A DNA stretch of 64,000 nt from Bacteroidales bacterium (GTDB lineage: Bacteria; Bacteroidota; Bacteroidia; Bacteroidales; UBA932). Made by a program: the position numbers and the translations under genes. The DNA is taken from NCBI GenBank assembly GCA_017465225.1, contig JAFTWQ010000034.1, positions 1 through 64,000 of the forward strand. Reading direction: 5' to 3'. Below the pieces are notes generated by a model. It was not told the DNA's origin. It ran no database searches and worked only from the letters and a program-made list of their open reading frames with translations. This document shows, one piece after another, positions 32,058 to 56,541 of this stretch; the stretch's first letter is position 1; every line of letters begins with the position of its first letter.

Positions 32058-32064
32058 AATTATC

Positions 32065-33108: not shown

Positions 33109-33128
33109 AACACTATCTATAGTCAAAA

Positions 33129-33136
33129 CAAATGTA
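33129..33136 (-). promoter_or_regulatory. -7 element of the 32065-33108 gene
   Basis: Minus-strand TACATTTG matches TAnnTTTG and is 20 bases upstream of the chosen ATG. No clear -33 TTTG. Confidence 0.5.
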
Positions 33137-33162
33137 AGAATAAAAATCCTATTATTTCGCAC

Positions 33163-33179
33163 TTCGCAAGGCTTGCGAA
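33163..33179. promoter_or_regulatory. palindrome in the divergent promoter region
   Basis: TTCGCAAGGCTTGCGAA is a perfect inverted repeat around one central base, between two divergently transcribed island genes. Candidate operator. Confidence 0.5.
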
Positions 33180-33205
33180 AAAGTAAAAGGCATTTGAGAG
33201 TATTC

Positions 33206-33213
33206 TATTTTTG
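33206..33213 (+). promoter_or_regulatory. -7 element of the VWA gene
   Basis: TATTTTTG matches TAnnTTTG, 16 bases before the ATG at 33230. Confidence 0.5.
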
Positions 33214-33229
33214 TAAAAACGATTAAAAC

Positions 33230-34130: not shown

Positions 34131-36365
34131 TTACATCGGGAAGACATATCCTCTGGTCTGCTCGAGGACTCGGTCAGGGTAGTTGGAGATGATGGCGTCG
34201 ACCTTGAGGTCGAGGATGCGCTTTATATCTTCCGGCTCATCTACGGTCCAAGGGACGATCTTCATTCCCCTTTCACGGCACTTCTGCACGAGGGCCTCGT
34301 CTGTGATCGAGTGGTGAGGGCTGAGCCACTGCGGGGTGAACTTCAGCTTCGCCATGAATGTCTCGAAATCAGGAGCTTTCGCATCTACAAGGTATGAAAG
34401 GATGAACTCCGGATATTTCTCATGCATGTAGTTCAATGCCCTTACATCGAAGCTCTGTACGACGAGCCTGTCGTCAAGCTGCTTCGAGTGGAGGAACTTG
34501 CAGCAGGTTGTAACGAAAGCATCATATGTAGGCCAATAGATGCCTTCTCCATCCGCTTCCTTCGACTTGATCTCGATATTGTATCTTACTGGAGAATATC
34601 CCATCTCCTTGGTGTAGTTCTCAACGAAATCGATAAGATCCTCTGCAAGAGGCTTGACGGTCTTGACACATGCCTTTTCCGGCCATACCTCGCTTGGGCG
34701 GCTTCCCACATCATATTTCGCTACCTCGCTGTAAGGCATGGTATAGATGTATTCCTTCGCATCTTCCTTCTGCACGTAGCTTCCGTCAGGACGGATAGCA
34801 TAGCGATGGTGGAAATACGGGTCATGAGAAACAACCACCAGTCCGTCCTTGCTGACCTGAAGGTCAAGTTCGAGAGTGTTTACTCCCATGTCAAGTGCAT
34901 GTTTCATCGCCTCGATGGTATTCTCCGGCATGAGACCGGCACCACCTCTATGAGCCTGTACATCAACATATTCAGACATGTTCACATTGTACACCCATGA
35001 CTGTCCGAAAGGATTTTCCACAGCGATTGTCACATTCTTCGCGTACTGGTTTGGAACAGCTGCGAAATAATGGTAATTGAGACGTGGCTTCTTGTATGAA
35101 GGAATTGTCTTGCCAGCAAACACCTCGTTTATCTCATGGACATAAACAGGAGAAAACTCCGACACCGGCTTCAATGATCCCATCGGCTTTCCATCCTCGA
35201 ACCATTCTACCTTCCATGAAGGATCCCAGTCCCAGACATTCACTACGATACCGTTTGGATGGTACGAAGTCTGACCTGGTCTGTAAAGCTCGACCTGATG
35301 GTTTTTGTCATGTCCGAGAGCCTTGTAATACCAGCTGAGCTTGCCGTCCTTCTTCGTGAACACCTTGTATCCGGAAGGAGTTCCATCCGTACAATGGTCT
35401 GTATCCCACCATGAGCCGCAGATGGCTGCGACGTTATGCTCGGTGATGTTGTTTGAATAATTCAGATTATTGTTGATATGGGTATGACCGGAGATGAAAG
35501 TCACCTTGCGGCCGCGCACGATATCAAGCATATCGGTAGAATTGACGATTCTAGCGTTGCCCTCATCCCATTTCATGAGTGGAGAATGCTGTGCGATATA
35601 AAGGTCTGCACCATAAGGTAGGAGTCTTTCAAGGCTCTTGACCCATGCAAGGACATGATCTGCATAGCCTTCGACATACTTCTTCTGTGTGTCGTAGATG
35701 ATATTGTCAACAACTATGACCACATCCTTTCCCATGAAGAACGCATAATTCTCCGGGCCCATTATCTGCCTGTATCTTGCAGTAGTATTAATGTCGCCGG
35801 AAGCCTCAAGTTCATGGTCATGATTTCCTACAACAGGATAGAAAGGAATGCCCGTACGGACGATTTCCTTCTTATACTTCTCAAGAAGGTCAAGAGAATC
35901 CCAGCAGATATCTCCAAGCGCCAGACCGGCAGCCGCACCGGTGAGGGTCTTTGCTGTCTGGCAGAGGTCTTCCATCGGCTTGCCTGCAAACTTTGCAAAC
36001 TGCTTCTCGTTCCTGGTCTGCGGATCAGCTATCGCCACGATGGAATAATCACCCGAACGGTCGGTCTTCTGAAGGTCAAACACGAACTTCTTGCATCCGG
36101 CTGCCTGCTGATAGAAGGCAGGCACTCCTGATGACCAGTCTGCCACATATCCGGAAGGAGTGACGATATATACGAACTCCGCATCATCCTTTATGTCAAA
36201 TGCGAATTTTCCATTCTTCTTTGTCTTTGTAAAGTTTGTTCCGTCAGTAACGATGACTCCTGACAGTTTCTCTTTGCCGGAAATGACTTTTCCGGTCACT
36301 TTCCTTGCCTGCGCAAAGCTGCAGAACATAAGCAATGCCGCTGCAAAAGCAATGATCTTCTTCAT
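34131..36365 (-). CDS. calcineurin-like phosphoesterase fused to glycerophosphodiester phosphodiesterase
   Basis: About 744 residues, exported (MKKIIAFAAALLMFCSFAQA). Residues about 25-100 form a carboxypeptidase-regulatory-like beta domain. Residues 108-300 are a calcineurin-type phosphoesterase with DPQ (114-116), GD (151-152), GNHDH (180-184), H260 and GHTH (293-296). The usual D-x-H first motif is D-x-Q here. Residues about 305-465 are the associated C-terminal beta domain. Residues 468-740 are a GDPD domain with HRGG (472-475), E481, ELD (499-501) and HD (514-515). GDPD releases sn-glycerol-3-phosphate from glycerophosphodiesters. Start: ATG 36365 is preferred to the in-frame TTG at 36374. 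It follows the MBL-fold gene by 12 bases. Both domains look active, so it may perform sequential cuts in the periplasm. Confidence 0.9.
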   Translation of the reverse strand: MKKIIAFAAALLMFCSFAQARKVTGKVISGKEKLSGVIVTDGTNFTKTKKNGKFAFDIKDDAEFVYIVTPSGYVADWSSGVPAFYQQAAGCKKFVFDLQKTDRSGDYSIVAIADPQTRNEKQFAKFAGKPMEDLCQTAKTLTGAAAGLALGDICWDSLDLLEKYKKEIVRTGIPFYPVVGNHDHELEASGDINTTARYRQIMGPENYAFFMGKDVVIVVDNIIYDTQKKYVEGYADHVLAWVKSLERLLPYGADLYIAQHSPLMKWDEGNARIVNSTDMLDIVRGRKVTFISGHTHINNNLNYSNNITEHNVAAICGSWWDTDHCTDGTPSGYKVFTKKDGKLSWYYKALGHDKNHQVELYRPGQTSYHPNGIVVNVWDWDPSWKVEWFEDGKPMGSLKPVSEFSPVYVHEINEVFAGKTIPSYKKPRLNYHYFAAVPNQYAKNVTIAVENPFGQSWVYNVNMSEYVDVQAHRGGAGLMPENTIEAMKHALDMGVNTLELDLQVSKDGLVVVSHDPYFHHRYAIRPDGSYVQKEDAKEYIYTMPYSEVAKYDVGSRPSEVWPEKACVKTVKPLAEDLIDFVENYTKEMGYSPVRYNIEIKSKEADGEGIYWPTYDAFVTTCCKFLHSKQLDDRLVVQSFDVRALNYMHEKYPEFILSYLVDAKAPDFETFMAKLKFTPQWLSPHHSITDEALVQKCRERGMKIVPWTVDEPEDIKRILDLKVDAIISNYPDRVLEQTRGYVFPM

Positions 36366-36377
36366 ATCAATCAATGT

Positions 36378-37592
36378 TTATTTTCCTGCCTTCTTGATCT
36401 CCGACTTGTATTTCACAGGATAAGAGATATCATCTGCATCAAGAACAAACACCTGATACTCCTCGCCTCCCTCATACACTCTCACAACGATATGTCCCCA
36501 TGGCTTGAAATGGCTCCAGAGGTCCTCACCAAGCTTCTTGCGGGCCTGGTCTACGGTGATGTAGAACTCACCCGGCTCTGTCCATACCAACGGATCGACC
36601 ATTCTGGACATGGTAGATGGAACAGGATGGTTGTCGCTTCTGGCATCGATGATCACGACGTCAGGAGACAGGGCGTTCATGAAGAAACCGTTGCATGTAT
36701 CGTAATATCCATGATGATTAGCCTTCATAACGTCTACAGTACCGCAGACCTTCGCAACCGGAGTCTCCATGTCCCTTTCATCGGACTTGTAGCTTGACCA
36801 GTTGCCACCGCTGAGGTCACCGCCGTTGTAATACCTGAAATCACCATATGTGATACGGAGAGCACAAGAGTTCACATTCTCATCGAAAAGCTTCGGATCA
36901 CCTTCGTACTGCTTTTCCGCCTTCTTTCCCTTTCCGGTCCAGACCTCACCGTTAGCCGCGAGATTGCGGATCTCGAAGTTTCTTCTGTACTTCTTTGGGT
37001 TGTTGAGCATCTTTATCTGGTTCAAGGCACCGACCTCGAACTTCTCCATCTCCATGCCCTGCGACATCTGATATTCCACAAACTTATGGTACTCGTCCAT
37101 GAACTTCTTGTTAGCATTGGCCACATTCTTCTTTGAAGGGAAATTGTACTTAGGATAACCCCTGTCTATCAGCTTGTTATAGCCGACGAGCTCACCCACG
37201 AGAGTGATGCCTGAAAGGCCGTAGCCGTTGCTGCCCGGAAGCATCTGACGGATGCTGCCCATATGATCATCATGGAAATGGGTGATCATGGCGTAGTCGA
37301 CCTTTCCGTTTCCTGGAAGACCGGCCATGAAATGCTTCATGTAGATAGCCTGCCACTCGCCCGCTCTCTTTGCGGTATCCGGATGCTGCTTGTCCTTTGT
37401 CTTGCCGTTGTCTCCGGCATCGATCATAAGGGTCGTACCGTCAGGCATAACGATGAATGTGGCATCGCCCCTTCCCGTAGCGATGGTGTGGATATCCATA
37501 TACCCCTCCTGCCACTTCGGAAGATAATCCTGAGCTGAAATGAGATTGAAGGCTGAAGCAAAGACAGCCAAGGTCATAAAGAAACGTTTCAT
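36378..37592 (-). CDS. exported MBL-fold metallo-hydrolase (ComEC beta-lactamase-like)
   Basis: About 404 residues with signal peptide MKRFFMTLAVFASAFNLISA. It has HFHDDH at residues 105-110 (H-x-H-x-D-H), an upstream MIDAGDNG loop, a late VMKANHHGYYD (His ligand) and VVIIDARSDNHPVP segment. The order resembles the hydrolase domain of ComEC, which acts on nucleic acids, and related phosphodiester or phosphatase-like enzymes. Start at 37592 is chosen because earlier codons do not encode a signal sequence. It is downstream of a terminator that closes the SusCD operon and is followed by the GDPD fusion. Periplasmic location suggests a second-step phosphoesterase; substrate unknown. Confidence 0.8.
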   Translation of the reverse strand: MKRFFMTLAVFASAFNLISAQDYLPKWQEGYMDIHTIATGRGDATFIVMPDGTTLMIDAGDNGKTKDKQHPDTAKRAGEWQAIYMKHFMAGLPGNGKVDYAMITHFHDDHMGSIRQMLPGSNGYGLSGITLVGELVGYNKLIDRGYPKYNFPSKKNVANANKKFMDEYHKFVEYQMSQGMEMEKFEVGALNQIKMLNNPKKYRRNFEIRNLAANGEVWTGKGKKAEKQYEGDPKLFDENVNSCALRITYGDFRYYNGGDLSGGNWSSYKSDERDMETPVAKVCGTVDVMKANHHGYYDTCNGFFMNALSPDVVIIDARSDNHPVPSTMSRMVDPLVWTEPGEFYITVDQARKKLGEDLWSHFKPWGHIVVRVYEGGEEYQVFVLDADDISYPVKYKSEIKKAGK

Positions 37593-37680
37593 AATATGTC
37601 TTGTTAGATTAATCTTATATAATCGTATAAAGATAGTGATTATTCCGTTTGATGCCACCGCATAGAGGGGATATATTTAC

Positions 37681-37712
37681 AAAAAAGTCGGCACACTTGA
37701 CGGTGCGCCGAC
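37681..37712 (-). terminator. terminator after the SusC/D surface lipoprotein gene
   Basis: In the minus direction GTCGGC (37712-37707) pairs with GCCGAC (37692-37687), followed by TTTTTT (37686-37681). It separates the SusCD transcript from the MBL/GDPD pair. Confidence 0.8.
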
Positions 37713-37737
37713 TGATTTTCAGTATGTATGAACCTGA

Positions 37738-40700
37738 TTACTCTGCGAAGGTAATTTCACAAGGTCCCCAGATACGATTGGTTCCGCCTGAAGCGAGAGG
37801 TTTGGTCGCACGGTATTCCATATCATCTGCCACCTTAGCCCTTATGTAAAGGGTATTGCTACCAGGAAGTGCCGGTGCACTATATGTAAGATCGACCTTA
37901 TAAGCCATATTGGCAATATTAGCACCTAACTTATTCAATGCGTAAGTGTAAGTCACTTCTCTTGGCTCTGAACCATCCTTGTAAGTTTCAGTAGAGGTCT
38001 TGCTATCTACTGCTGTCCAGTTCTGGCCATCCACAGAGACCTCGACAAGGAAATAATTCGCTCCTGTATTTGAAGACGATTGGGTGTATTTGATGTTGTA
38101 TTTACCTGCAGGCATATCCACCACAGGTACTTCAAACAACCAATATGCATCCTTGGCCAAACCGGTTGCAAGAACTCGTACGTGATCTTTGGTAACTCCT
38201 TCATCTGAACTTGCCTCATACTTATAAGTAACCTTCAAAGCAGAGCCATCCGGATTATGTGCAGAAAGTTTGGATTTACCATCCTCTGACAGGATCCATC
38301 CCTCAGCAAGATTCCAGTTGGTAGGGTTTTCCACCTTACTTGCATCAAACGTAGGATCGTATGGGAATGGGAAAACTGTATGAAGAGTTCCGCCAACAGG
38401 GGCATCACTCTTGGCCAGTTTCACATTATCAAGGAACCAACGGTAGTTTCCTGATGCATCAACAACACCGGTGAAAGCAGTAGGTCTGATGGATATTCTC
38501 GTATCATTGTCAACGCCAGAGATAACGATTGTCTCTGTCTGCCATTCCCAATCTCCAGCAGTATGCTTGATCGGAGCGGACTTCTGCTGTCCACCGATCG
38601 TACCGTTTCCTTCGATAACGACCTCAAGTTCAACCGGATCCGGGCCATTAGCACCAATATTGATTCCCCAGTCGAAAGAAAGAGCAACAGTTGACTCACC
38701 ATAGAAGTTGGTCTTAGGTAAGCGGATACCATTGGTATTCTTACCCTTGCTGAACTTCAGATAGTTACCCTTCATCACATAGATAGCCTTCGATTCTGGG
38801 AAGAGAGCCTCGTAACCGAGTTCTGCCAACTTCTGCTCAAATCCTTCAAGACCGTATGAAGAACTTACAGTATATTGAGCGTTATCAAGCATACTGTCAC
38901 CCTGAGTACGTCCCTGAGCGATATCTGCATCGACAAACGGAGCAACCCAAGCAAAGTCATCCTGGAAGAATACGCCTACCTCAAAAGCAGCCTGCTCAAG
39001 AGTATATACAGACTCAAGGTTCTTTTCGGCATTAAAAACACGGATATGCGCTGTTCTAGCCTCAGGCACTGTATTAGCCTCATACTTGACAACATATGTA
39101 GTTAATTCAACCTGAGCTCTGGTTGCAGGAACAGGCTCTACTGTTGCCCATGCAACATCAGATTCGACCTTAAAGTCAACATTAGACTGAACTGTAAGGT
39201 TCAATGTACCCTCATCAGATGAAACCTTTGTGCCATTTCCACCGACAATACTTACAAACGGTTCAACCTTCTGGCCTGGAGACATCTGCTTGACAGGGAT
39301 GGTCTCTACAGTAAGACCTGACTCGATTGTAATCTCTGTGGTACGTGGTTCGCTTTCAGTATGCTCCTTTGCGCCTACCTTGACAGTAGTTGGAGTTGAA
39401 GCAGCGATTGTAAGTGAAGACACCTCCTTATCATCAGCATCAATGAAGAATGCCCAATCAGCTCCTACTGTGAGGGTTGCCTCCTGGTCAGACTGGAATT
39501 CGAATGTAATCGGTTCAGTCTGAGCAGCTTCAAAGATGATGTTATTCTCCATTGAGATTGTAACCTCAGCCTCTGTAGGCTCAGCAACAGATACGGAACC
39601 GGTGTACTCGATGATCTTGATGTTATCAAGATACCAACGGTTCTGATGTCTTGCCTTGTTCTGCTTGTCCGGATCGGCATAAGTAGGACGGATAGTGAGA
39701 ACCGTCTCTGGTGTAGCTTCTGTCAGGACTATAGAAACGTGCTGCCATTCAATCTTGCTCTTTTCAGCTTCCTGTGACTGCGCTGACTCAAGGTTCTGCG
39801 AAACAGCCGTACCGGTCTGCTCGAACTTACCATTGCTTGACTCGACTGTAAGAGTCATAATGTCCGGATTGTAAGAGCCTGTCACCTGCCAGCACCAATC
39901 AAAGTCAATAACGATGTTCACCTGTCCCGGAATTGCGGACAATGCAGGAAGCCTGAGGGCTCCGTTGTAGCTTGTCTGACCGAACTTGAGATAATCCTTC
40001 TGGATATACATGGATCCATCCTTGCCGACGGAACCGTTAGGAGCCTGTTCAGGACCAAGTTTGAATTCGCTATCACCGACTGTACCCCAAAGATACTGGT
40101 AGCCGATTTCATTGAACTTATTGAAGAAGTCCTGACTTGAAGTCATCTTCCAGACGTTAGGTGCTGTAGTAGATGGATTGTTGGTTCCGACCGCATCACC
40201 TGCAGCATCTGCAGCAGACATCGGTGCGATCCAAGAGAAGTCATCAGAGAAATAGATAGTCTCAAGAGACTTCACTCCCTTGACTTCAACAGGAACGAAG
40301 TAGACCACATTGGTTCCCTGACCTACGGTATATCCCTTAGCCTCCACTAACCATCCGTCGTACTGTGAAATAGCGAGTGATTCATGCGGATTCATAACCT
40401 CTATTACCACAGAATCAGGCTGAGATGGCCTTTCAGCACCTTCCTCGTAGTAAAGCTCGATCTTCTTGGAAGCATATTTACCTGTTATTGAGACAAGTTC
40501 GATCTGCGAAGCCTTGTATGCCTGAAGTTCTGCTGTAATATCTTTAGCAGAAGAATAATCTACAGCAGAATTGGAAGCCTTGACGAACTTATCACCCTTA
40601 GCCAAAGATGGGAGATCGTTGAGTGAGGAAACATATGCATATACATTACCCTTGTCACCAAGTTCAACCTCCAGATCAGCAGCAACATAAGACAAAGCAG

Positions 40701-41193
40701 TCTGATCCTGCGCAATGAAACCATTAGAAGCGAGAGCCACAACCTGCACGTCCTTGACTCCGACGAAAGTATCAGTCTCAAGGGCAAGAGCCTCAGCCAT
40801 GGTAAGTTCTACTAGGTCACGGTATTTATCACCCGCCTGAAGGATATCTACAAAAGCATTTGCATATATATCCTGACCGACGAATTTAAGCACATCCTGA
40901 CGAGGTCTGTCTGGAAGATTCTCTCTTACGTTTGGTTCTACGACCACCGTAACTACAGTCTCACCAGCATCTCCGGTAGCGGGGTCAACAGTAACCCAGC
41001 TTGGAGTCTCAACGGTCCAAGGAGCATCAGCGTAAACTGTAAGTGCTAGAGCCAAAGTGTCCTCGATACCGAATTCCAACGAAGATTTATCTGTCATTAT
41101 AGCCGTAGCTACCAGCTTTTCCTCTTCATTCAGACATGAAGAAAGCATAGCAAGCGAGGCTAATATAAGTATGAATTGTCTAATTATTTTCAT
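37738..41193 (-). CDS. large multidomain surface lipoprotein (BACON-rich, probable substrate-binding protein)
   Basis: 1151 residues. Lipobox LSSC with Cys20 and an acidic +2 region (LNEEE) typical of surface export. Visible modules: BACON-like Ig domain (about 30-115), OB-fold-like/DUF5689-type domain (about 120-250), a beta-sandwich module beginning IYFSDDFSWIAPM (about 310), BACON-like domains (about 545 and 650), a second copy of the sandwich module beginning FFQDDFAWVAPF (about 745), and a final beta domain (about 945-1151). The two sandwich modules are paralogous (conserved Y-L-K-F-x, N-x-x-R-L-P and R-W-F/Y-L-D-N-x-K). Encoded 11 bases after SusD, it occupies the place of a SusE/F-like surface binding protein. 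Ligand unknown. Confidence 0.8.
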   Translation of the reverse strand: MKIIRQFILILASLAMLSSCLNEEEKLVATAIMTDKSSLEFGIEDTLALALTVYADAPWTVETPSWVTVDPATGDAGETVVTVVVEPNVRENLPDRPRQDVLKFVGQDIYANAFVDILQAGDKYRDLVELTMAEALALETDTFVGVKDVQVVALASNGFIAQDQTALSYVAADLEVELGDKGNVYAYVSSLNDLPSLAKGDKFVKASNSAVDYSSAKDITAELQAYKASQIELVSITGKYASKKIELYYEEGAERPSQPDSVVIEVMNPHESLAISQYDGWLVEAKGYTVGQGTNVVYFVPVEVKGVKSLETIYFSDDFSWIAPMSAADAAGDAVGTNNPSTTAPNVWKMTSSQDFFNKFNEIGYQYLWGTVGDSEFKLGPEQAPNGSVGKDGSMYIQKDYLKFGQTSYNGALRLPALSAIPGQVNIVIDFDWCWQVTGSYNPDIMTLTVESSNGKFEQTGTAVSQNLESAQSQEAEKSKIEWQHVSIVLTEATPETVLTIRPTYADPDKQNKARHQNRWYLDNIKIIEYTGSVSVAEPTEAEVTISMENNIIFEAAQTEPITFEFQSDQEATLTVGADWAFFIDADDKEVSSLTIAASTPTTVKVGAKEHTESEPRTTEITIESGLTVETIPVKQMSPGQKVEPFVSIVGGNGTKVSSDEGTLNLTVQSNVDFKVESDVAWATVEPVPATRAQVELTTYVVKYEANTVPEARTAHIRVFNAEKNLESVYTLEQAAFEVGVFFQDDFAWVAPFVDADIAQGRTQGDSMLDNAQYTVSSSYGLEGFEQKLAELGYEALFPESKAIYVMKGNYLKFSKGKNTNGIRLPKTNFYGESTVALSFDWGINIGANGPDPVELEVVIEGNGTIGGQQKSAPIKHTAGDWEWQTETIVISGVDNDTRISIRPTAFTGVVDASGNYRWFLDNVKLAKSDAPVGGTLHTVFPFPYDPTFDASKVENPTNWNLAEGWILSEDGKSKLSAHNPDGSALKVTYKYEASSDEGVTKDHVRVLATGLAKDAYWLFEVPVVDMPAGKYNIKYTQSSSNTGANYFLVEVSVDGQNWTAVDSKTSTETYKDGSEPREVTYTYALNKLGANIANMAYKVDLTYSAPALPGSNTLYIRAKVADDMEYRATKPLASGGTNRIWGPCEITFAE

Positions 41194-41204
41194 AGCAACA
41201 AAGA

Positions 41205-43043
41205 TTAAAAGTCAAGACCGTCATCCCATCCCGGATTTTGAGTCAAATTCTGATTTAGTGAACGTTCATCAATCGGAATAGGATAGAAGTAATCCCTTTC
41301 CTCATTGAAAGTATGGTCACTATTCTGCTGAGGGTCAACATGTCCGTCCTGGCTCAAGAATATGTCAGTGCCTATCTTAAGCACCGCACATGCAGCAAAC
41401 TTAGGATCAGTTGGGTTAATGGTAGGCTGCGCCTCATTTGAGCCATAGAGCCAAACGTCAATTGTGCCATTCTTGTCTAGGTCATACTGACCAGGACCAG
41501 AGAAGTAGATACCATGCATATCCTGCTCGACACACTTTCCTTCCTTCCATCTCAAAAGGCCTTCCCACCTGAAGTCACCTTCCTGGGCCAGCTCAACCCC
41601 TCTCTCACGTCTGATTTCAAGAATCTGTGCAAGATTAGGATCCTTGAGGAGAATAGGGTTAGAGTAACCTGTCTCTGGATCTATGAGATATGGATCAACT
41701 GTAAGAGAATTCACATTCATCCTAGCCATGCCGACGCGGTCACGAAGAAGGTTGATGGTCCTGTCAGCCACAGTCTGATCGAACTGACCGAGTTCAGCCT
41801 TAGCCTCAGCATAGTTAAGGAGAACCTCAGCATAACGATAAACTGGGGTATCATTAGACGAACGGTCTGCACGATCTGAGTCACCGCCGTTTGCATCCGC
41901 TGCCATAGTCCACTTTGCAATATGGTAACCAGTACATGTGCAGGTAAGATCCGGTGCAAGCACATCATCTCCATTTATACGCTTGTAACCAGGCGCTCTG
42001 AGTGTCTGAGCGAGGCGAGGGTCTCTGTTCTGGAACTCATCATAGTAAGAAGTTGTCTTGTGGTTCGGATTAGCAGTGGTATAGCTTGTTCCATCTGCCA
42101 TCAGATATGTATTGACAAACTTCCTAGTCGCAGAGAGACGTCCCTGTGCAGGGAGTATGGACATTGCAGTCGAGTTGTTGTAGATACCGGCAGGGTGATT
42201 GTAATATACTGCAAGAATGAACTCAACCTTACTAGCATCTTCCTGCGCGAAAAGCATACGATAGTCCTTATCCGGATTGCCGGTAGAATAAAGGCTGTAC
42301 GGGCCGTCATTCATAATCTCTTCAGCAGCTGCTGCAGCCTCTGTGAGATAGAACTTGTAATCATTCACAGTCTCGACGCCTGCTGTTGCCGGATCGATTG
42401 TAAGATTATGATACTTTCTGAAGGTACCTTCAAAAAGACAGAACTGCGACTTCAGAGCCAATGCAGCCCACCTGTTCACGCGGAAAGTAGAAACACCTGC
42501 AGGAAGATTTTCAATGGCGAAATTTACATCCTCAAGCATCTTCTGCATAATGAACTCCCTGGAATCTCTAGGAGCATAAAGTTTCTCGGAATCAGAACTG
42601 AGTTCCTCATCAAGCCAAGGAACATCACCGAAAAGTTTCACCTTTTCATAGTAGAAGAACGCCCTGAAGAAGCGGGCAAGAGCCTCATATTCTGCCCTCA
42701 CCTGTTCATCCTCACAAGAATCCATTCTGGAAAGAACGGTATTGATACGCCTGAGATCAGTCCAGGACCATCCTCCGCCTGAAGCAGGAACGGTTCTGTA
42801 AGACCCTCCATGAAGAAGGTTGGAGAGAGACAACTTGATGAAATGGTCGCTCTGATGGTTATATGGGTGCTTGTCCAGCAGGTTGTTGTACAGTGGATTG
42901 GTAAAAAGTTGGAAGTCTTCTGCCGTCCTGAAATAGATATCCTCAGTCATATCTGAAAGCGGGCCTCTGTCAAGAAAATCGCAAGCAGTGAATGAAGCGA
43001 TTGCAGCAAAAGCAATTATCAAATATTTTTTCATCTTGTTCAT
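41205..43043 (-). CDS. SusD/RagB-family outer-membrane nutrient-binding lipoprotein
   Basis: 612 residues with lipobox ASFTAC and the SusD start CDFLDRGPLSDMTEDIYFRTAEDF. TPR-like helices follow (LARFFRAFFYYEKVKLFGDVPWLDEEL), with the C-terminal DRTINLLRDRVGMARMNV and ERGVELAQEGDFRWEGLLRWK typical of the family. SusD proteins sit as lids over the partner SusC barrel and capture ligand. It lies between SusC (22 bases upstream) and the surface lipoprotein. The accompanying enzymes suggest a phosphodiester rather than a plain glycan. Confidence 0.93.
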   Translation of the reverse strand: MNKMKKYLIIAFAAIASFTACDFLDRGPLSDMTEDIYFRTAEDFQLFTNPLYNNLLDKHPYNHQSDHFIKLSLSNLLHGGSYRTVPASGGGWSWTDLRRINTVLSRMDSCEDEQVRAEYEALARFFRAFFYYEKVKLFGDVPWLDEELSSDSEKLYAPRDSREFIMQKMLEDVNFAIENLPAGVSTFRVNRWAALALKSQFCLFEGTFRKYHNLTIDPATAGVETVNDYKFYLTEAAAAAEEIMNDGPYSLYSTGNPDKDYRMLFAQEDASKVEFILAVYYNHPAGIYNNSTAMSILPAQGRLSATRKFVNTYLMADGTSYTTANPNHKTTSYYDEFQNRDPRLAQTLRAPGYKRINGDDVLAPDLTCTCTGYHIAKWTMAADANGGDSDRADRSSNDTPVYRYAEVLLNYAEAKAELGQFDQTVADRTINLLRDRVGMARMNVNSLTVDPYLIDPETGYSNPILLKDPNLAQILEIRRERGVELAQEGDFRWEGLLRWKEGKCVEQDMHGIYFSGPGQYDLDKNGTIDVWLYGSNEAQPTINPTDPKFAACAVLKIGTDIFLSQDGHVDPQQNSDHTFNEERDYFYPIPIDERSLNQNLTQNPGWDDGLDF

Positions 43044-43065
43044 CTTTAATATGTTTCAAACAGAC

Positions 43066-46000
43066 TTAGAATGTAAGATCGATACCGAACATGAACGTCT
43101 TCTGCCATGGGTAGAATGCGTTGTTGTAACGGGTTGGGCTGCCGTCGCTGAGTCTGTCAAATGCAGCCTCCGGATCGATATACCTGCTATGCTTCTTGAA
43201 TGGCGACCAATATGCAAGGTTTTCACCCGAGAAATAGATGCGGACCTTCTGAACGCCAATCTTCTTAGAGATATTTGCAGGAACGGTATAACCTACAGAA
43301 AGGTTCTTGAGTCTCAGATATCGGATATTCTGAAGGTATCTGCTATTGACATTAGCAAGAGGTGCTCCTGATGTAAAGGCTGAGTAAGCACGAGGACGTG
43401 GGAAATATGCATCCGGATTCTCCTCACTCCATACATTGCTCAGGAAATTCTGAGGAAGGAATGAGCAATACGGACGGGAGTATGGGCCCCAGAACGCCAT
43501 AGACTCAGCATTAGGATACCAATAATGGTTACCTGTTCCCTGGAAGAAGATAGAGAAGTCAAAGCCCATATAGTCAAAGCCAGCAGTCATGCCATACTGA
43601 AGAGATGCGATAGAATTACCGAGAATCTTGCGGTCGCCAGGATCGTCAACACTATTGGCACCTACCGAAATCTTACCGTCACCATTTAAATCGACATATC
43701 TTGGGTCACCGGCAAGCCAGCCGCCATACAATCTCTTATTGATGTAGTTGAGGTCAACCTGCTCTGCATAAGCCTTAGCCTCAGCGTCAGACTGGAAAAG
43801 GCCGTCGATCTCAAAGCCCCAAATCTCACCGAGTTCCATTCCGACATAATAGTCCTTTGCAAAGGTTTTCTTATCATTATCATACTTGGTAATGACAGTT
43901 CTGAAGTCAGACAATGTCGCACCTAAATTATATCCGAAAGGCTTTCCGAAAAGGCTGAACTGATCTCTCCAGCCGATAGCAAGTTCATAACCTGTAGTAC
44001 GGAGATCGGCAGCGTTCATATCAGGCTCTGAAGCGCCATATACGCCTGGAAGAGCCACACCGTCAGTGAGCATATCCTTGGTATCACGTATATATGCCTC
44101 CGCAGTGAATGTCAACCTGTCCTTGAAGAGACCGGCATCAACACCGAGGTTGTACTGCTGTGATGTCTCCCAGGTAAGGTCTCCTGCATTAGGAGCAGAC
44201 AGCGAAGTATAACTTGCTGTCGAACTGCCCTCGCCGAAACTGAAACCGGCAAAATCGTATGTCTGGATCTTACGGATGAACTTGTATGCCGCAACATTCT
44301 GGTTTCCTAGGCTACCGTAAGAAAGACGGAGTTTGAGATTGCTTACAACATCCTTTGCAGGAGCAAACCAATTCTCCTCAGAGATACGCCAGCCTGCCGA
44401 CGCTGAAGGGAACAGTCCCCAACGGCTTCCTTTGGCAAATTTTGATGTACCATCATAACGTCCGGACACCTCAAAAAGATACTTACCCTTGTAGTCATAG
44501 TTGATACGTCCGAAGAATCCAAGAAGAGCATACTCCGACTGACCGCCGGAAGCCATAAACTCCTTGACACCATCGCCATTAAGTCCGACGAGATCGAAGT
44601 CATTAAGGTCCTCTGTAAGAATATTATAACCTGTTGTTAAAAGATCTTTCCTATAAGAATACTCAAGGTTACCTCCAGCCATTACTGTAAGGTGATGGTC
44701 ATTTTTGAAGGTATCTTCGTATGTCGCAAAAAGGTTTGCGGCATTATATGACCAACTGTCAACCTCCTCATTAAGGGAATCCTCGCCCGCTGTTCCTTTA
44801 CCTGTATAAACCGCTGTACTTCCAGGATACTGGGAATATTCCAATGCGGTACCTCTGTTGGTATTGCGGTTCTGGTGGAATCTGTAAGTGTAGTTTGCAG
44901 TGATTGTCAACTGCTTGATCGGAGTGATCTTGAGTTCGGTAGTATTGGCGAAGTCCATCTTCCTGTCAAGGTTGATGTTCTTGTCATTGCCATAGATTGC
45001 GTGACGGCCGTTTGCAACCTTATATCCGAGGAAGTCTGTACCATATACCCAAGTACCATCAGGGTTCTTCGGGGTAAAGCAGGCAAGACCGTGGTTTGCT
45101 GCGTATGCGATGGCATTCTGGACATTTGAAACTCCAGGATAATCATATACGGAATTATAGAATGACGTATTGTTGCTCATTCTCATATACTTATTGATCT
45201 GGAAATCAATCTTCGAGCGGAGATTGTACTTCTCGAACAAGTCAGGACGAGCCTTGATGATACCGGTCTGCCTGTTGTAAGCACCGGAAAGATAATACTT
45301 CACCTTCTTGCTTCCACCACTTACCGAGATATTATGCTGCTGAACCGGATGCTGGTCGTTGAACATCTCGTGCCACCAGTCGGTATTGGCATAATAAACC
45401 CATTTGTCCTTACCGCCTCTGTTCTGGATTGTCACCCAAGGACGGTCAGGATGCTCTGTCTTGTCATTGATACGGAGAAGGAGCTGCTGCATATCATAAT
45501 CATTGTACTTGATGTATTGTGACACACCATCATCCGCTTTCCAGAACATATTGTGAATGTATGCAGACCAATAACCGGTAGTCTCGAAGTCAGTAGATGT
45601 TGTAGGTTCCTCCCAACCGAAACGTCCACTGTAACGTACTACAGCATTACCATCATCATCGTTACCCTTCTTGGTTGTGATGAGAATGACTCCGAACGCA
45701 GCACGGGCACCATATACAGCAGCTGCCGAAGCATCTTTGATGACTGAGATAGACTCAACGTCGTTAGGGTTCACACGGTCCATCTCACCCTCGACTCCAT
45801 CGATCAGGACGAGAGGATTACCACCATTGATGGAACCTGTACCACGGATCTGCAATGTTCCTGTACTGCCAGGGTTACCGCTTGAAGTAGAGATGGAAAG
45901 TCCCGGTACAGAACCCTGAAGCATAGAACTCAAGTTAGGGGAAACACGGTCCTGAAGTGCCTTTTCATCAACAACTCCCACAGCACCGGTCAGATTGACC

Positions 46001-46350
46001 TTCTTCTGTGTACCATAACCGACAACGACGGTCTCTTCGATCATCATATTGTCTTCGGCCAGATAAATTGTGACCTTATCCTGAGTTGCAGGCACTGTCA
46101 CAAGCTTGGTTTCATAACCGAGAGATGACACATTGAGGACTACCTCGGAAGCAGGCACAGTGAGTGCGAAACTTCCATCCTCAGCCGTCATGACTCCGTT
46201 TGTCGTTCCGTCAACGATGACTGCCACTCCGATCAGAGGGAAGTCAGTCGCGTCCAGCACGACACCGGACAATTCTCTGCTCTGCGCAAAGGCACTTACG
46301 CCTGCAAGCATCAAAGCAAGAGAAGCAGCGAAAGATTTGAATAATCTCAT
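43066..46350 (-). CDS. SusC/RagA-family TonB-dependent outer-membrane transporter
   Basis: 1094 residues with signal peptide (SLALMLAGVSAFAQ), CarboxypepD_reg-like domain (ELSGVVLDATDFPLIGVAVIVDGTTNGVMT), TonB box/plug (VVVGYGTQKKVNLTGAVGVVDEKAL, then LVLIDGVEGEMDRVNPNDVESISVIKDASAAAVYGARAAFGVILITTKKG) and a long beta barrel. It imports the ligand delivered by SusD using TonB energy. It forms one transcript with the upstream calcineurin lipoprotein (34 bases) and downstream SusD. There is no N-terminal anti-sigma STN domain, so regulation is not of the ECF sigma type through this protein. Confidence 0.95.
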   Translation of the reverse strand: MRLFKSFAASLALMLAGVSAFAQSRELSGVVLDATDFPLIGVAVIVDGTTNGVMTAEDGSFALTVPASEVVLNVSSLGYETKLVTVPATQDKVTIYLAEDNMMIEETVVVGYGTQKKVNLTGAVGVVDEKALQDRVSPNLSSMLQGSVPGLSISTSSGNPGSTGTLQIRGTGSINGGNPLVLIDGVEGEMDRVNPNDVESISVIKDASAAAVYGARAAFGVILITTKKGNDDDGNAVVRYSGRFGWEEPTTSTDFETTGYWSAYIHNMFWKADDGVSQYIKYNDYDMQQLLLRINDKTEHPDRPWVTIQNRGGKDKWVYYANTDWWHEMFNDQHPVQQHNISVSGGSKKVKYYLSGAYNRQTGIIKARPDLFEKYNLRSKIDFQINKYMRMSNNTSFYNSVYDYPGVSNVQNAIAYAANHGLACFTPKNPDGTWVYGTDFLGYKVANGRHAIYGNDKNINLDRKMDFANTTELKITPIKQLTITANYTYRFHQNRNTNRGTALEYSQYPGSTAVYTGKGTAGEDSLNEEVDSWSYNAANLFATYEDTFKNDHHLTVMAGGNLEYSYRKDLLTTGYNILTEDLNDFDLVGLNGDGVKEFMASGGQSEYALLGFFGRINYDYKGKYLFEVSGRYDGTSKFAKGSRWGLFPSASAGWRISEENWFAPAKDVVSNLKLRLSYGSLGNQNVAAYKFIRKIQTYDFAGFSFGEGSSTASYTSLSAPNAGDLTWETSQQYNLGVDAGLFKDRLTFTAEAYIRDTKDMLTDGVALPGVYGASEPDMNAADLRTTGYELAIGWRDQFSLFGKPFGYNLGATLSDFRTVITKYDNDKKTFAKDYYVGMELGEIWGFEIDGLFQSDAEAKAYAEQVDLNYINKRLYGGWLAGDPRYVDLNGDGKISVGANSVDDPGDRKILGNSIASLQYGMTAGFDYMGFDFSIFFQGTGNHYWYPNAESMAFWGPYSRPYCSFLPQNFLSNVWSEENPDAYFPRPRAYSAFTSGAPLANVNSRYLQNIRYLRLKNLSVGYTVPANISKKIGVQKVRIYFSGENLAYWSPFKKHSRYIDPEAAFDRLSDGSPTRYNNAFYPWQKTFMFGIDLTF

Positions 46351-46384
46351 AAAATCATTAGTTTAGTTAATATTTGGTTGTGTT

Positions 46385-48319
46385 TTATTTATATGCATTT
46401 ATAGAGAACGCCTTCGGACGTTTCATAGTCTCAGTAGCAGTGTTGCCGAATCTGTCTGTAACTTTGATTTCAAGAGTAGAGGAAGATGATGAAGCCCTGA
46501 CTCTGAACAAGTGAGAAGATACGGAATATGCATTGAAACTTGATGTAGGATTCGCATTTGCATTATATCTCTTAGCCTCGTATGATACAAGATGAAGAGG
46601 ATCCTTAGCCTTTACAAGTTCAGTAGTAAGAGCCTTGCCATTTTCCGTCACTTCGATCTCCCAAGATGGATCATAATCGAAAACATTGATATACACATAG
46701 TTATCAGTACTTCTCGAAACCCAATGCGAAGCAGACTTCTCGAAAGCAGCCGCCTTATCGGATTTTGCATCCGGTGTATAGCTGGCACCTGTAAGAGCGA
46801 TCTGATTCCTGTCATACGAACGAAACATATGACTGAAATCCTTCCCAGTAGGCTTAAATCTCCATTTGACATCATTGCCGTTCATTTCATACACATAGTA
46901 TCCAGAAGGAGAGCCATCCTTGCAAAGTCCCAAGCCTGCAGTGTAATATCCGGTCCACCACCAGGTTCCGCAGATAGCTCCGCTGTTATGATGGAAGATA
47001 CCGTTCGAAGCGGTCTTGTCGTTATTCCACACAACGTGAGTGTGGGCACTCATTACGTGAGTCTCATAACCTGAGCATATCTGTTCAAGATCTGATGCAT
47101 AATTCATAGCGGCACTACCGTTCTCATTATACATCTGTGCATGCATAGTGATTACCAGAGTCTTGGACTTATCAACGTATGAAAGGTCTTTTTTAAGCCA
47201 ATTGATCTGGTCAGTAGTCAGGCTCGAGTTATAATCTCTGCCGCTTCCATCAGCTTTCGGAACATTTGTACAGAGAATATTATCAAGAACAACATAATGC
47301 ACATTACCTATATTAAAAGAATAATAGGTAGGAGCCACTTTAGATTTGAATGCTGTAACGGTATTGAAGTCACCATCCGCCATCATATCGTGATCGTGGT
47401 TACCGATAGTATGGAAAATCTGAATACCACTCACCTTTGAATTCATTGTATCAAGGTATGAATACAAGTCATATGCATTACTATACCAGTATAGATCCCA
47501 GGTCATATCTCCCAACGTCAGAGCATACTGTTTCTTCGACTTATTGGCTGTAATCTGCTCATTGAGATCAGTCGTAAAATCTGCGAACTGCACCAGGTCT
47601 CTGGTTCTGTCAGCAAGATGCATATCGCCAAGGACATACATCACGTGGTCTGCATTATTGACCTTGGTCAGAGTCCAGTCTGCTCTTTCAGTGGTCTTCG
47701 GATTACCGTCCAAAGTCTTATGGAAATTAGGAAGAATACCCTCAGATGCAGCCTCATATCCAGAAGGGATAGACATAAACACCAGTTTATTGTATTCCTT
47801 TGATGCCATATAGTACAATCCGTTTTCATCTGTAACGCAGACCTCGACGCCATCTGAAACGACAACGCCTGGCACTCCGACACCATCACAAGAGATCAGG
47901 CCGTATACATTATAGCCTTCCTTCTCGGATATTTCAATCCTTTTTTCAATCTCAAATGAAATTTCACCTATCGCCTTGGTCTGTGAACCACGTCTGATAC
48001 TGAAAACATATTTTCCGGTTTCGACCTGAGCTGAGATCTTGAAGCTGAAACTCTCCGAAGAAACACTGACAATATTGCATAGGATCTCTTCGGCAGACTT
48101 CTTCAAAACAATGACATCTCCCATTTTCGGCCCTTTACCAGAATAGAATTTCACGGACACAATATCTCCGGCCGCCCCAGAAACCGATTCAGGAAGACTG
48201 ATAAGAAACTGCAGAGATTCCGGTACATCACCTTGATCAGGTTCCTTTTCACAAGAAACAAGCATTGATAGAATGACTGCCATTGCAAGATATTGAAAAA
48301 TAAAAGCAATTCTGTTCAT
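46385..48319 (-). CDS. surface calcineurin-like phosphoesterase lipoprotein
   Basis: About 644 residues. Lipobox LVSC with Cys23 and an acidic +2 region (EKEPDQGD). An Ig-like N-terminal domain (30-130) and a regulatory-like beta domain (GVVVSDGVEVCVTDENGLYY, about 150-171) precede the calcineurin domain: DMH (232-234), GD (270-271), GNHDH (306-310), H393 and HTH (426-428). All metal ligands are present. A C-terminal beta domain (about 480-640) matches that of the GDPD fusion. It hydrolyses phosphomono- or diesters, probably at the cell surface. It follows the GlpT gene and precedes SusC. Confidence 0.88.
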   Translation of the reverse strand: MNRIAFIFQYLAMAVILSMLVSCEKEPDQGDVPESLQFLISLPESVSGAAGDIVSVKFYSGKGPKMGDVIVLKKSAEEILCNIVSVSSESFSFKISAQVETGKYVFSIRRGSQTKAIGEISFEIEKRIEISEKEGYNVYGLISCDGVGVPGVVVSDGVEVCVTDENGLYYMASKEYNKLVFMSIPSGYEAASEGILPNFHKTLDGNPKTTERADWTLTKVNNADHVMYVLGDMHLADRTRDLVQFADFTTDLNEQITANKSKKQYALTLGDMTWDLYWYSNAYDLYSYLDTMNSKVSGIQIFHTIGNHDHDMMADGDFNTVTAFKSKVAPTYYSFNIGNVHYVVLDNILCTNVPKADGSGRDYNSSLTTDQINWLKKDLSYVDKSKTLVITMHAQMYNENGSAAMNYASDLEQICSGYETHVMSAHTHVVWNNDKTASNGIFHHNSGAICGTWWWTGYYTAGLGLCKDGSPSGYYVYEMNGNDVKWRFKPTGKDFSHMFRSYDRNQIALTGASYTPDAKSDKAAAFEKSASHWVSRSTDNYVYINVFDYDPSWEIEVTENGKALTTELVKAKDPLHLVSYEAKRYNANANPTSSFNAYSVSSHLFRVRASSSSSTLEIKVTDRFGNTATETMKRPKAFSINAYK

Positions 48320-48346
48320 AGAAGTACATTTCTTATTGATAAGCAA

Positions 48347-49729
48347 TTACGCCTGCTTTTCTGATTTAAGTGTCATCACGCAGATCAGGATGCCGAGGGC
48401 GGCTCCGATCACCATTGTGAAGTTTGCCATGTCCCAGCTCTTGTCAGCGATACCACCGACGATGATCTTCGAGAGAAGCGAGTCACCGATAAGGTATCCT
48501 GAAAGGCCTACAAAGCCCGCAGCTGTACCGGCAGCATTCTTCGGCACGAGATTGAGGGCCTGGATGCTGACAAGGGCTACAGGGCCGTAGATGCAGAATC
48601 CGATGAGGATGAGGGCAACATAGACCCATACCTTAGCAGAAATACCGGTTGCAACCGCGAGAGCAGGCACCTGCCAGTAGATAAGGCAGCCGATGAACAC
48701 GAGAGACATGAAGATGATGTTAGGAGGAGCGCATCTTCCCTTGAAGAATTTAGCGGAGATCCAGCCGCATACGATGGTACCGAGGGCACCTACATAGTTG
48801 TGGATAGAGAATGCGAGCTTGCTTTCCGCTCCGGTCATGATGCCTGTTTCCTGAAGATATGTAGGAGACCAGTCACCCACACCGTATCTTACCATGTAAA
48901 CGAATGCATTTGCAAGGGCGATCATCCAGATCCACTTGTTCTTCAGCACATAGTCCACAAGCTGTGTCTTGAACGGAACCTTCTCACCCACCTTCTCCTT
49001 GGTCTTGACGCCTGAATGGTCATTCCTCCAGTCAGCTACAGACGGGAGTCCGCAAGACTCAGGAGTGTCACGGAGCGACCACCAGCAGAATGCCGCAAGC
49101 GCGAGAGCGAAGACTGAAGGAGCGATGAAGTTTGCCCTCCACGGCTGTGCTATGCCCATGTCGGCAAAGAGTCCCACGCCGAAAATAGCGATGATGCCGA
49201 GAGTACCCGCACCGATGGTGTGTGATGTATTCCAGAGGGACATCTTGAAGCTTCGTTCATTGTTTGAGAACCAGTATGCCATCATTCGTCCGCATGGAGG
49301 CCATCCCATTCCGGAAAGTACGCCGACGAAAAGCATGATGACGAAGAGCATCGCCACATTGAGAGCAGGATTGGCTGCCGAGAAAGGGAGGAAACCGACC
49401 GACATCATCACGAGAGACGCGACGATGAGACCGATCGTAAGGAATTTTCTTGCATCGGAACGGTCTGAAAGCATTCCCATTCCGAATTTGCTGAATGCAT
49501 AAGCGATAGATACTGCCGATGCTGCGATACCGACTCCCTGCTTGTCAAGCAAGCCCTCTGCAATCATGTCTGCAGAAGCCAGGGAAAGATTCTTACGTAC
49601 CAGATAATACGCGGCATAGCCGAGGAATGAACCCATGAAGACCTTGAATCTCATGGACTTGTACACGCTGTCGATCTTCTCTTTAGGAAGAAGCGGTTTC
49701 GCCTGAGGCGGATCGAAGAATTTTGCCAT
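48347..49729 (-). CDS. glpT: organophosphate:phosphate antiporter, GlpT/UhpT type
   Basis: A 460-residue MFS protein with 12 membrane segments. The phosphate-coordinating arginines are visible as R45 (YYLVRKNLSLA) and R281 (YMVRYGVGDWSP), with H170 (NTSHTIGAG); these align with E. coli GlpT R45, R269 and H165. MGWPPCGRMMAYWFSNNERS is the OPA-family signature. OPA antiporters import glycerol-3-phosphate or sugar phosphates in exchange for phosphate. It precedes the phosphoesterase lipoprotein gene by 27 bases (stop 48347, next start 48319). Glycerol-3-phosphate is favoured by the co-located GDPD, but hexose phosphate is not excluded. Confidence 0.88.
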   Translation of the reverse strand: MAKFFDPPQAKPLLPKEKIDSVYKSMRFKVFMGSFLGYAAYYLVRKNLSLASADMIAEGLLDKQGVGIAASAVSIAYAFSKFGMGMLSDRSDARKFLTIGLIVASLVMMSVGFLPFSAANPALNVAMLFVIMLFVGVLSGMGWPPCGRMMAYWFSNNERSFKMSLWNTSHTIGAGTLGIIAIFGVGLFADMGIAQPWRANFIAPSVFALALAAFCWWSLRDTPESCGLPSVADWRNDHSGVKTKEKVGEKVPFKTQLVDYVLKNKWIWMIALANAFVYMVRYGVGDWSPTYLQETGIMTGAESKLAFSIHNYVGALGTIVCGWISAKFFKGRCAPPNIIFMSLVFIGCLIYWQVPALAVATGISAKVWVYVALILIGFCIYGPVALVSIQALNLVPKNAAGTAAGFVGLSGYLIGDSLLSKIIVGGIADKSWDMANFTMVIGAALGILICVMTLKSEKQA

Positions 49730-49862: not shown

Positions 49863-50924
49863 TTACAGATAATAATCACAATTATACATGTTAAGAATAT
49901 CCATCTGGATGAAGTTGTCTCTTTTCGCCACTGACTTGCCCATAAGAAGATAATCCGCCATAGAATTCACAGCCTCCACTGCCTGCCTGTCCGTATGCTG
50001 TGCGACCAGAGCCTGGACCGTACCGCTGCGCAAAGCTTCGATATTCTTTTCGAGGCAATCGAAGCCGACTACCCTGCAGTCATGTATTCCCCTGTCTGTC
50101 AGATAGTCAGCCACCAGATGGATTCTCGAATTGAACATGACGACGAACCTTTTCCCTTTTTCAGCGCCGACCGTCTGATCCAGCTTCGTATAGATTGCAG
50201 CCTTGTCCTTCGGATCGATGAACACATTATCTATCTGAACATCAGGGTAATGTCCCTTCATGAAATCCATGAAACCCGCCCTTCTGGCAGCAGTAGGATC
50301 GGAGAGGCCCATCTTGTCACGGGCGATCCTGACCACATAGACCTTTTCAGGCACATCACGCCCTCCTGTCAGAATATCGGCGCACAGATATCCGCTCTGG
50401 TACATAGGCATTCCGAAATATGCAAGATAGCCGTCATCATCTATCTTGGAATCCAGGAACATATACGGGACACCGGCTTCGGACAGCCGGCCTACGAACT
50501 TCAATGTCTCCTCACCATACATCGGAGCCACCAGGACCCCGGAAGGAGGATTGTCCATGACCTTGCTGCAGGCATTGCGGAAAGACTCCACGCTGTACTG
50601 GTCATACTTTACGGTTTCAATGCGGATGCCATATCTTGAAACAAGCTGGGCCGCGTCCTGCAGACCCTTTTCAGTCAGCGACCAGAACTCCCCCGGCTGG
50701 AACTCGGGTATCACGCATTGGATCAGGCGTTCCTTCTGGGAAGCGAGAAGCGATGCATAGAGATTCGGCCTGAAACCGAGCTCCTCTATCACCTTCAGGA
50801 CCTTCTCCTTGCTTTTACGGGACACTTCCCCCCTGTTATGAAGGACACGGTCGACAGTTCCCTTCGATACGCCGGCAGCCTTTGCCACATCATTGATAGT
50901 CACTTTATTACCTTCATTGTTCAT
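49863..50924 (-). CDS. LacI-family transcriptional regulator
   Basis: About 353 residues. The N-terminal HTH VTINDVAKAAGVSKGTVDRVLHNRGEVS (residues 8-35) is followed by the hinge helix RPNLYASLLAS and a periplasmic-binding-protein-like effector domain. The region LDSKIDDDGYLAYFGMPMYQSGYLCADIL is typical of sugar-binding members. The frame continues to a GTG at 50948, but a -7-like CATATTTG overlaps that GTG, so ATG 50924 is preferred. It is divergent from an ExuT-type transporter with a palindrome between them, and its stop is 133 bases before glpT. Effector unknown; a sugar acid is plausible from the neighbour. Confidence 0.9.
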   Translation of the reverse strand: MNNEGNKVTINDVAKAAGVSKGTVDRVLHNRGEVSRKSKEKVLKVIEELGFRPNLYASLLASQKERLIQCVIPEFQPGEFWSLTEKGLQDAAQLVSRYGIRIETVKYDQYSVESFRNACSKVMDNPPSGVLVAPMYGEETLKFVGRLSEAGVPYMFLDSKIDDDGYLAYFGMPMYQSGYLCADILTGGRDVPEKVYVVRIARDKMGLSDPTAARRAGFMDFMKGHYPDVQIDNVFIDPKDKAAIYTKLDQTVGAEKGKRFVVMFNSRIHLVADYLTDRGIHDCRVVGFDCLEKNIEALRSGTVQALVAQHTDRQAVEAVNSMADYLLMGKSVAKRDNFIQMDILNMYNCDYYL

Positions 50925-50986
50925 GATCGCCGCTGTTTTTGGACACACAAATATGAGAAAAAATATCCTTTATTCAAACCCGATTT

Positions 50987-56537: not shown

Positions 56538-56541
56538 ATCA

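Follow-up and report, generated by a model that had tools for sequence, protein, structure and literature searches.

A Sus-type locus with phosphodiesterase genes that may serve glycerol-3-phosphate acquisition in gut Bacteroidales

What does a SusC/SusD pair take up when the genes around it encode phosphoesterases and an organophosphate transporter? This question is raised by a locus in a 64,000-nucleotide stretch of a Bacteroidales bacterium (UBA932; contig JAFTWQ010000034.1 of assembly GCA_017465225.1), whose metagenome-assembled genome (MAG) comprises 2.35 Mb and is 78% complete. We will use the term "window" for this whole stretch. The locus consists of seven intact open reading frames (ORFs) on the minus strand, all present at the coordinates that a sequence-only reading of this DNA had given, in the order glpT, calcineurin lipoprotein, SusC, SusD, BACON lipoprotein, terminator, hydrolase of the metallo-beta-lactamase (MBL) fold, and calcineurin-GDPD fusion. 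Judging from the genes and their relatives, we consider it fairly probable that this is a Sus-type system for the acquisition of glycerol-3-phosphate (G3P), which would capture a glycerophosphodiester oligomer, hydrolyse it at the surface and in the periplasm, and import the G3P. The observations behind this reading are the gene content, the intact active-site motifs, the conserved order, and the fact that the same parts are linked with G3P genes in other genomes.

In the proposed mechanism, an oligomer bearing glycerophosphodiester units would be captured by the SusD-family lipoprotein (41205..43043; PF07980 and PF14322, SusD_RagB) and by a 1151-residue lipoprotein (37738..41193), a putative binding protein. 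The latter had been described as BACON-rich, which is overstated, since a single BACON domain (residues 675-734) lies above the Pfam cut-off; its profile gives only weak, partial matches, one to a GH16 entry and one to a sulfatase entry. The calcineurin lipoprotein (46385..48346; MetallophosN/Metallophos/MetallophosC by Pfam), presumably on the surface, would trim the captured oligomer, and the SusC/RagA TonB-dependent transporter (43066..46350; TIGR04056, 897 bits) would import it. The MBL hydrolase and the fusion would then cleave the phosphodiesters in the periplasm and release G3P, which the GlpT-like antiporter would carry into the cytoplasm in exchange for phosphate. The surface and exported locations are predicted from lipobox-like or signal-peptide-like N-termini judged by eye, and the catalytic specificities and the direction of flow are likewise predictions. 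The ORFs of the calcineurin lipoprotein and the fusion probably begin at ATGs a few codons inside the called starts.

The fusion (34131..36374; MetallophosN/Metallophos/MetallophosC+GDPD by Pfam, export predicted) scores 136.2 bits against PF03009, for which the cut-off is 23.6. The catalytic motifs of GDPD enzymes, which we take to be HR, E-x-D, and H, can be followed in its residues H475, R476, E502, D504, H517, and E601, all invariant in 52 of 52 distinct fusions. The calcineurin residues D117, D155, N184, H185, H263, H297, and H299 are invariant in the same 52. The usual first calcineurin motif is D-x-H; in all 52 fusions Gln replaces the His (Q119, D-x-Q), unlike in the calcineurin lipoprotein of the window, which retains D-x-H. 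The full-length fusion is found in 49 of 300 genomes of the genus, including that of the window. Outside the genus, a match spanning both halves was not found in 295 genomes of the order, in each of which up to three candidates were scored, and the halves occur apart. A quick-method tree of the calcineurin half is compatible with the two halves having been joined once, at the base of the genus, and with the GDPD part having been lost repeatedly since. In G039, G216, and G346 (L036, L075, L083), a tandem calcineurin half without GDPD stands right before the fusion.

The other predicted enzymes and the transporter can be placed with varying precision. The GlpT-like organophosphate:phosphate antiporter (48347..49729; MFS domain) has TIGR00712 as its best match and aligns to Escherichia coli GlpT (1pw4) with an E-value of 5e-110. 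The Arg, His, and Arg key residues, presumably R45, H165, and R269, are identical in this alignment, as had been claimed from the sequence alone. The MBL hydrolase (PF00753, Lactamase_B; 36378..37592, in a longer ORF to 37658; export predicted) probably starts at ATG 37592 rather than at GTG 37658, because its putative signal peptide and its relatives begin there. Its residues H105, D109, H110, D259, H293, and H294 are invariant in 52 sequences. The best solved-structure match of its profile is the pneumococcal teichoic-acid phosphorylcholine esterase Pce (1wra). Set beside Pce/CbpE (1wra, 12qj), the protein is predicted to have the same MBL fold, and the metal-binding motifs are aligned in the profile match; this match is remote (E 1.7e-8), a ComEC-type domain is matched as well (E 4e-4), and choline-binding repeats are not reported for the protein by Pfam. 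The calcineurin profile has only remote likeness to purple acid phosphatases and to an acid-sphingomyelinase-like phosphodiesterase (E 6e-8 to 3e-4), so the activity may be that of a monoesterase or of a diesterase. A PhoD-family calcineurin was not found in the Pfam scan, where the calcineurins gave only PF16371, PF00149, and PF16370.

Is this combination of genes maintained? The seven-gene order is contiguous in nine further genomes of the genus (G024, G039, G183, G216, G304, G313, G234, G346, and G251), so the linkage that the sequence-only reading proposed to look for in relatives exists. Chance linkage as the sole explanation has therefore been rejected. The nine loci are not exact copies of one another: some include an extra ORF or a further calcineurin copy ahead of the fusion, the final gene of G251 is without GDPD, and the copies in G313 and G234 are near-identical; in G334 and G230, pieces of the locus are split over two contigs. 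As far as 10-kb flanks show, the same gene set also occurs in named records, which are gut MAGs of water buffalo, water deer, sheep, goat, cow, and yak. Among 34 other fusion loci whose sequence extends for 9 kb or more on one side, 23 have SusC within 12 kb, and among 24 with 9 kb or more of upstream sequence, 21 do; many of the compared loci were chosen through SusD or fusion matches and are not random samples. Starting from SusD, a calcineurin homologue is found upstream of SusCD in 38 of 41 orthologue loci (at least 40% identity, 6.5 kb of upstream sequence).

Across the ten complete loci, the pairwise identities of calcineurin, SusC, SusD, and BACON proteins correlate with one another (r 0.74-0.95), as do those of GlpT and the fusion (r 0.81), while between the outer-membrane block and the GlpT/fusion block r is 0.32-0.57. 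The MBL identities correlate with those of the fusion at 0.66, of GlpT at 0.38, and of the outer-membrane block at 0.16-0.20. These values rest on 45 non-independent pairs. The closest GlpT and fusion (G234 and G313; 96% and 83%) are paired with a 59% SusD, and the closest SusD (G183; 93%) with a 66% fusion. Since identities covary within blocks and less between them, the outer-membrane block seems to have been exchanged separately.

The product of the locus is probably G3P, as judged from the company that its parts keep in relatives. GDPD genes that lack the calcineurin half share 53-63% identity with the fused domain; they adjoin glpT in 26 of 46 cases compared (55-63% identity), and glpK lies within 6 kb in 13 of the 16 glpT-adjoining cases that belong to a set of 190 genomes. 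G015 carries the run glpA (end)-glpB-glpC-GDPD-glpT-MIP channel-glpK. Around a 66%-identical GlpT in G180, glpA has been confirmed, and glpB, glpC, and glpK have been recognised by eye. At five such GDPD loci (G008, G015, G036, G058, and G069), SusC was not found nearby by BLAST with the window genes, which serves as a small control for the proximity of SusC.

Outside the genus, the same kit is combined with other SusCD pairs. G522, from another genus of the same family, has the order glpD, glpT, MetallophosN/C lipoprotein, SusC, SusD, second MetallophosN/C protein, and BACON protein; its glpD contains DAO and DAO_C, a DeoR-type regulator is divergent, glpT reaches 511 bits with TIGR00712 (below cut-off), and the SusD matches a SusD-like_2-type profile. 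In G588, from another family, about 21 kb hold, in this order, GDPD (66 bits), glpT (584 bits), glpC, glpB, and glpA (all three over their cut-offs), an alkaline phosphatase, two calcineurins, SusD, and SusC. G358, from a third family, carries SusC-SusD-MBL-TIG/NHL lipoprotein-GlpT-like-GDPD on one strand. The SusCD pairs of G358 (SusD 25%), G522, and G588 (a different SusD profile) are not close relatives of that in the window, and the linkage of such distant pairs to the same kit argues for function and not for shared history.

Several observations weigh against the G3P reading. The TIGR00712 score of the window's GlpT-like protein is 442.8 bits, short of the equivalog cut-off of 632.55; we keep the assignment, as a protein that would work like GlpT, on the strength of the 1pw4 alignment. 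SusC is absent within 12 kb from 11 of the 34 fusion loci, and because SusC genes are common in these genomes (an initial scan gave up to 66 SusD candidates in one of them), proximity to SusC counts less than gene order. Within 12 kb of the 41 SusD orthologues, GDPD occurs in 14, GlpT in 18, and MBL in 9 loci, which ties this SusCD family to the calcineurin and not to G3P as such. The GDPD part itself varies among relatives: a quick-method tree of the calcineurin half with 99 rows shows 10 label changes, 9 of them forced by starred branches, and one of its 51 "fused" labels (L261) marks only a long tail. Of 295 genomes of the order that were searched for the MBL, six gave a match, the window's genome included, and among the other five GDPD and a GlpT-like gene stand beside the MBL in G358 alone. 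There, a GH2 gene follows GDPD, and the MBL is present in one of five genomes of the family, so the G358-type locus is a single case.

Further points of this kind concern glycans. Between the BACON gene and the fusion, G052 has GH89 and GH31, G157 has GH31, and G320 has two sulfatases, so the earlier description of the locus as equipped for phosphodiesters "instead of glycans" was too strong. These genes speak for an ordinary glycan locus, whose glycan would carry phosphoglycerol or another phosphodiester substituent and whose phosphoesterases would remove side groups only. On the other hand, Pfam reports no carbohydrate-active enzyme (CAZyme), lyase, or sulfatase domain in the seven genes of the window, just as had been said of glycoside hydrolases, lyases, and sulfatases; the nine conserved loci consist of homologues of the window genes, with a few extra ORFs outside the scan; and the conserved transporter is GlpT-like rather than a sugar porter. 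We regard the glycan explanation as unlikely. The locus does share the SusC/SusD pair and the surface lipoprotein architecture with glycan polysaccharide utilization loci, and relatives G052 and G157 have CAZymes, but without a CAZyme among its seven genes it is not such a locus by the defining feature.

Homologues of the MBL also occur in nucleoside and glycan loci and in phyla other than Bacteroidota, so it is not by itself diagnostic of teichoic acid, and we do not claim it as a member of the Pce family. The glycan-type neighbours include WbsX in L183, others having been assigned by eye. The nucleoside kit has the order SusC-SusD-calcineurin-lipoprotein-MBL-PfkB kinase-permease-nucleoside hydrolase (L174, L175, and L177), and these MBL and calcineurin homologues would suit a scavenger of nucleic acids or nucleotides whose GDPD acts on another phosphodiester. 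For the window this is very improbable: the nucleoside-salvage genes are not in its locus, and GDPD and GlpT were not detected in the inspected part of the nucleoside loci. L178 encodes an MBL-nucleoside hydrolase fusion, and in L180 PfkB kinase and permease have been confirmed, with no SusCD in the stretch inspected. L197, in the complete genome of Bacteroides xylanisolvens XB1A (NC_021017.1, ~4397320-4398471), has SusC-SusD-MBL homologue-DUF5689 lipoprotein and is handy for testing the MBL family.

How the locus may be controlled bears on what it is for. An intrinsic terminator of 11 pairs (7 G-C) with a T-tail lies at 37686..37713 on the minus strand, between the BACON and MBL genes, where the sequence-only reading had placed one, and for this reason the locus probably forms two transcription units. 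Overall, the terminator scan gave 11 sites against 12.4 in shuffles, which is no excess. Similar hairpins can be seen by eye upstream of the MBL gene in L075, L076, L078, and L083, and none in the inspected stretches of L034, L036, and L121. Directly upstream of glpT is a LacI-type regulator (49863..50948, minus strand; LacI HTH + Peripla_BP_4 by Pfam), a homologue of which (59-74% identity) precedes glpT in L078, L079, L083, L089, and L157, from four other genomes; G024 and G039 have another gene at this position. The intervening sequence contains a putative promoter -7 box TAAATTTG (49771-49764, minus strand), and TAAATTTGCAGGTTAT is conserved upstream of glpT in L078, L079, and L083. The -7 box consensus is TAnnTTTG, which occurs 44 times on both strands of the window, so the TAAATTTG box alone is weak evidence. 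Just past it lies a perfect palindrome, GGTTATAACC (49761-49752), which the neighbouring LacI regulator may use as its operator. The LacI-type gene together with the TAAATTTG box and palindrome upstream of glpT speaks for substrate-specific control rather than for a response to phosphate alone.

The closest described systems respond to phosphate. The PUS loci (PusCD) of Flavobacterium johnsoniae are induced by depletion of inorganic phosphate, place a SusCD-type pair beside exported phosphodi- and phosphomonoesterases, include inner-membrane organophosphate transporters across strains, and have been proposed to scavenge phosphodiesters (PMC8115612). The window locus has the same co-location of a SusCD pair with phosphodi- or monoesterases and, in its GlpT-like gene, of an inner-membrane organophosphate transporter. 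PUSII pairs PusCD2 with the alkaline phosphatase PhoA1, which carries pf13653 (PMC8115612), a domain named GDPD_2 in our Pfam scan of the window; PhoA1 is thus itself a phosphatase-GDPD-type fusion and sets a precedent for such a protein in the company of SusCD. The sequence-only reading, which held that no Sus-type system of this composition had been described, overlooked these loci, although the exact gene set was not seen in the part of that source covered here. Two differences stand out. PUS loci are defined by phosphate-induced expression in plant-associated strains; and calcineurin, GlpT, GlpQ, pf03009, and glycerol-3-phosphate are terms absent from the main text of PMC8115612, so neither a G3P end-module nor a calcineurin-GDPD fusion is described in that text.

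Could the window locus be a phosphorus scavenger of this kind, cutting phosphodiesters chiefly for phosphate under limitation, with G3P import secondary? Beyond the likeness in composition, including the PhoA-GDPD_2 protein of one PUS locus, an alkaline phosphatase (G588) and a 5'-nucleotidase (G522) lie nearby in relatives. The LacI-type regulator before glpT here and in four other genomes, which suggests substrate-specific control, and the recurrent partnership with the G3P-catabolic genes glpD, glpABC, and glpK speak against it, and we rate this explanation as quite unlikely.

A second known route resembles the G3P reading from the enzymatic side. In Bacillus subtilis, the calcineurin-type PhoD and GlpT have roles in the degradation of wall teichoic acid (WTA). 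The GDPD enzyme GlpQ of this species removes sn-glycerol-3-phosphate units from unsubstituted WTA and fully degrades it to glycerol phosphate (PMC7086022). The shared elements are a calcineurin-type enzyme, a GDPD, and GlpT; the differences are that Bacillus is Gram-positive, recycles its own wall, and has no SusCD, and that the window calcineurins are of the MetallophosN/C type with no PhoD match. By analogy, the locus may work like a merger of a PUS locus with the Bacillus route from teichoic acid to G3P. In the open-licence literature, we found no paper joining SusD, GlpT, glycerol-3-phosphate, and polysaccharide utilization, and none joining teichoic acid, polysaccharide utilization loci, SusD, and phosphodiesterase; nor did those searches bring up the G3P end-module, the calcineurin-GDPD fusion, or the module exchange. 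Of the earlier proposal, the core of capture, phosphodiester cleavage outside the cytoplasm, and organophosphate import is supported by the gene order in the genus and by the same kit beside G3P genes in relatives, while its wording on novelty and on the exclusion of glycans is not.

Which polymer would be captured? The likeliest natural candidate is a glycerol-phosphate wall polymer, at about one in three, and deacylated phospholipids and phosphoglycerol-decorated glycans are further open candidates. Teichoic acid is plausible because the nearest solved relative of the MBL is a teichoic-acid phosphorylcholine esterase and because GH31 and GH89 occur in the loci of two relatives. GH89 is an alpha-N-acetylglucosaminidase family, and alpha-glucose and alpha-GlcNAc are known substituents of WTA. 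That a GDPD enzyme, GlpQ, degrades unsubstituted WTA speaks for it as well, whereas the MBL homologues in nucleoside and glycan loci and in other phyla, together with the sulfatases of G320, speak against it.

The source of G3P in the genus has been approached through GpsA, the usual G3P synthase, which gives a strong match (E below 5e-39) in 26 of 190 genomes, a weaker one in 61, and none in 103. Of the 26 genomes with strong GpsA, 8 have GlpT or GlpK, vs 139 of the 164 others (Fisher p 4e-8, uncorrected for kinship), and the 33 fusion genomes in this set include 32 with GlpT and 3 with strong GpsA. These counts suggest that many species rely on imported G3P or glycerol in place of their own G3P synthesis. 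Among 76 near-complete genomes of the genus, six have no GpsA, GlpT, or GlpK match, so either an unrecognised source of G3P must exist or the searches miss some. Weak GpsA-like proteins may also be functional, and for both reasons the replacement of GpsA is a lead and not a result. Canonical GpsA is patchy across the genus (e.g. G039, G013, and G024) and anticorrelated with GlpT/GlpK. In the window's MAG, at 78% completeness, the GlpD C-terminal family and GpsA have no match, and GlpK has a weak, paralogue-like match only (E 2e-32); G3P auxotrophy of this species is not claimed, since the MAG is incomplete and glpABC was not searched there.

The window also holds genes outside the locus. A second, separate one with SusC, at 52572-63278, encodes a hybrid two-component regulator (52572-56537), a DUF5107-TPR protein (56730-60143), and a SusC-like protein (60186-63278); L068 begins with a SusD-like ORF that goes with it. 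On the other side, adjoining the seven genes at 28779-34000, are a DUF6939 protein (28779-29474), a WG-repeat protein (29910-32057), and a weakly TerF-like vWA protein (33230-34000).

In its most far-reaching form, the G3P reading would make this a dedicated teichoic-acid-eating Sus system of herbivore-gut Bacteroidota, which would strip glycerol-phosphate wall polymers from Gram-positive neighbours and import G3P. Many species without GpsA would draw their phospholipid backbone from imported G3P or glycerol, and the recognition block (calcineurin, SusC, SusD, and BACON) would be swapped between species over a conserved periplasmic and inner-membrane processing block. We put this forward tentatively and consider it doubtful as a whole. 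If the G3P reading is true, the Sus paradigm of gut Bacteroidota would extend from glycans to phosphodiester polymers, with G3P named as the end product, and there would be a testable route for feeding on the walls or lipids of neighbours. The modular kit, with its G3P or nucleoside end-module, would offer a substrate prediction for SusCD loci without CAZymes, and the GpsA link would tie nutrient capture to membrane-lipid synthesis.

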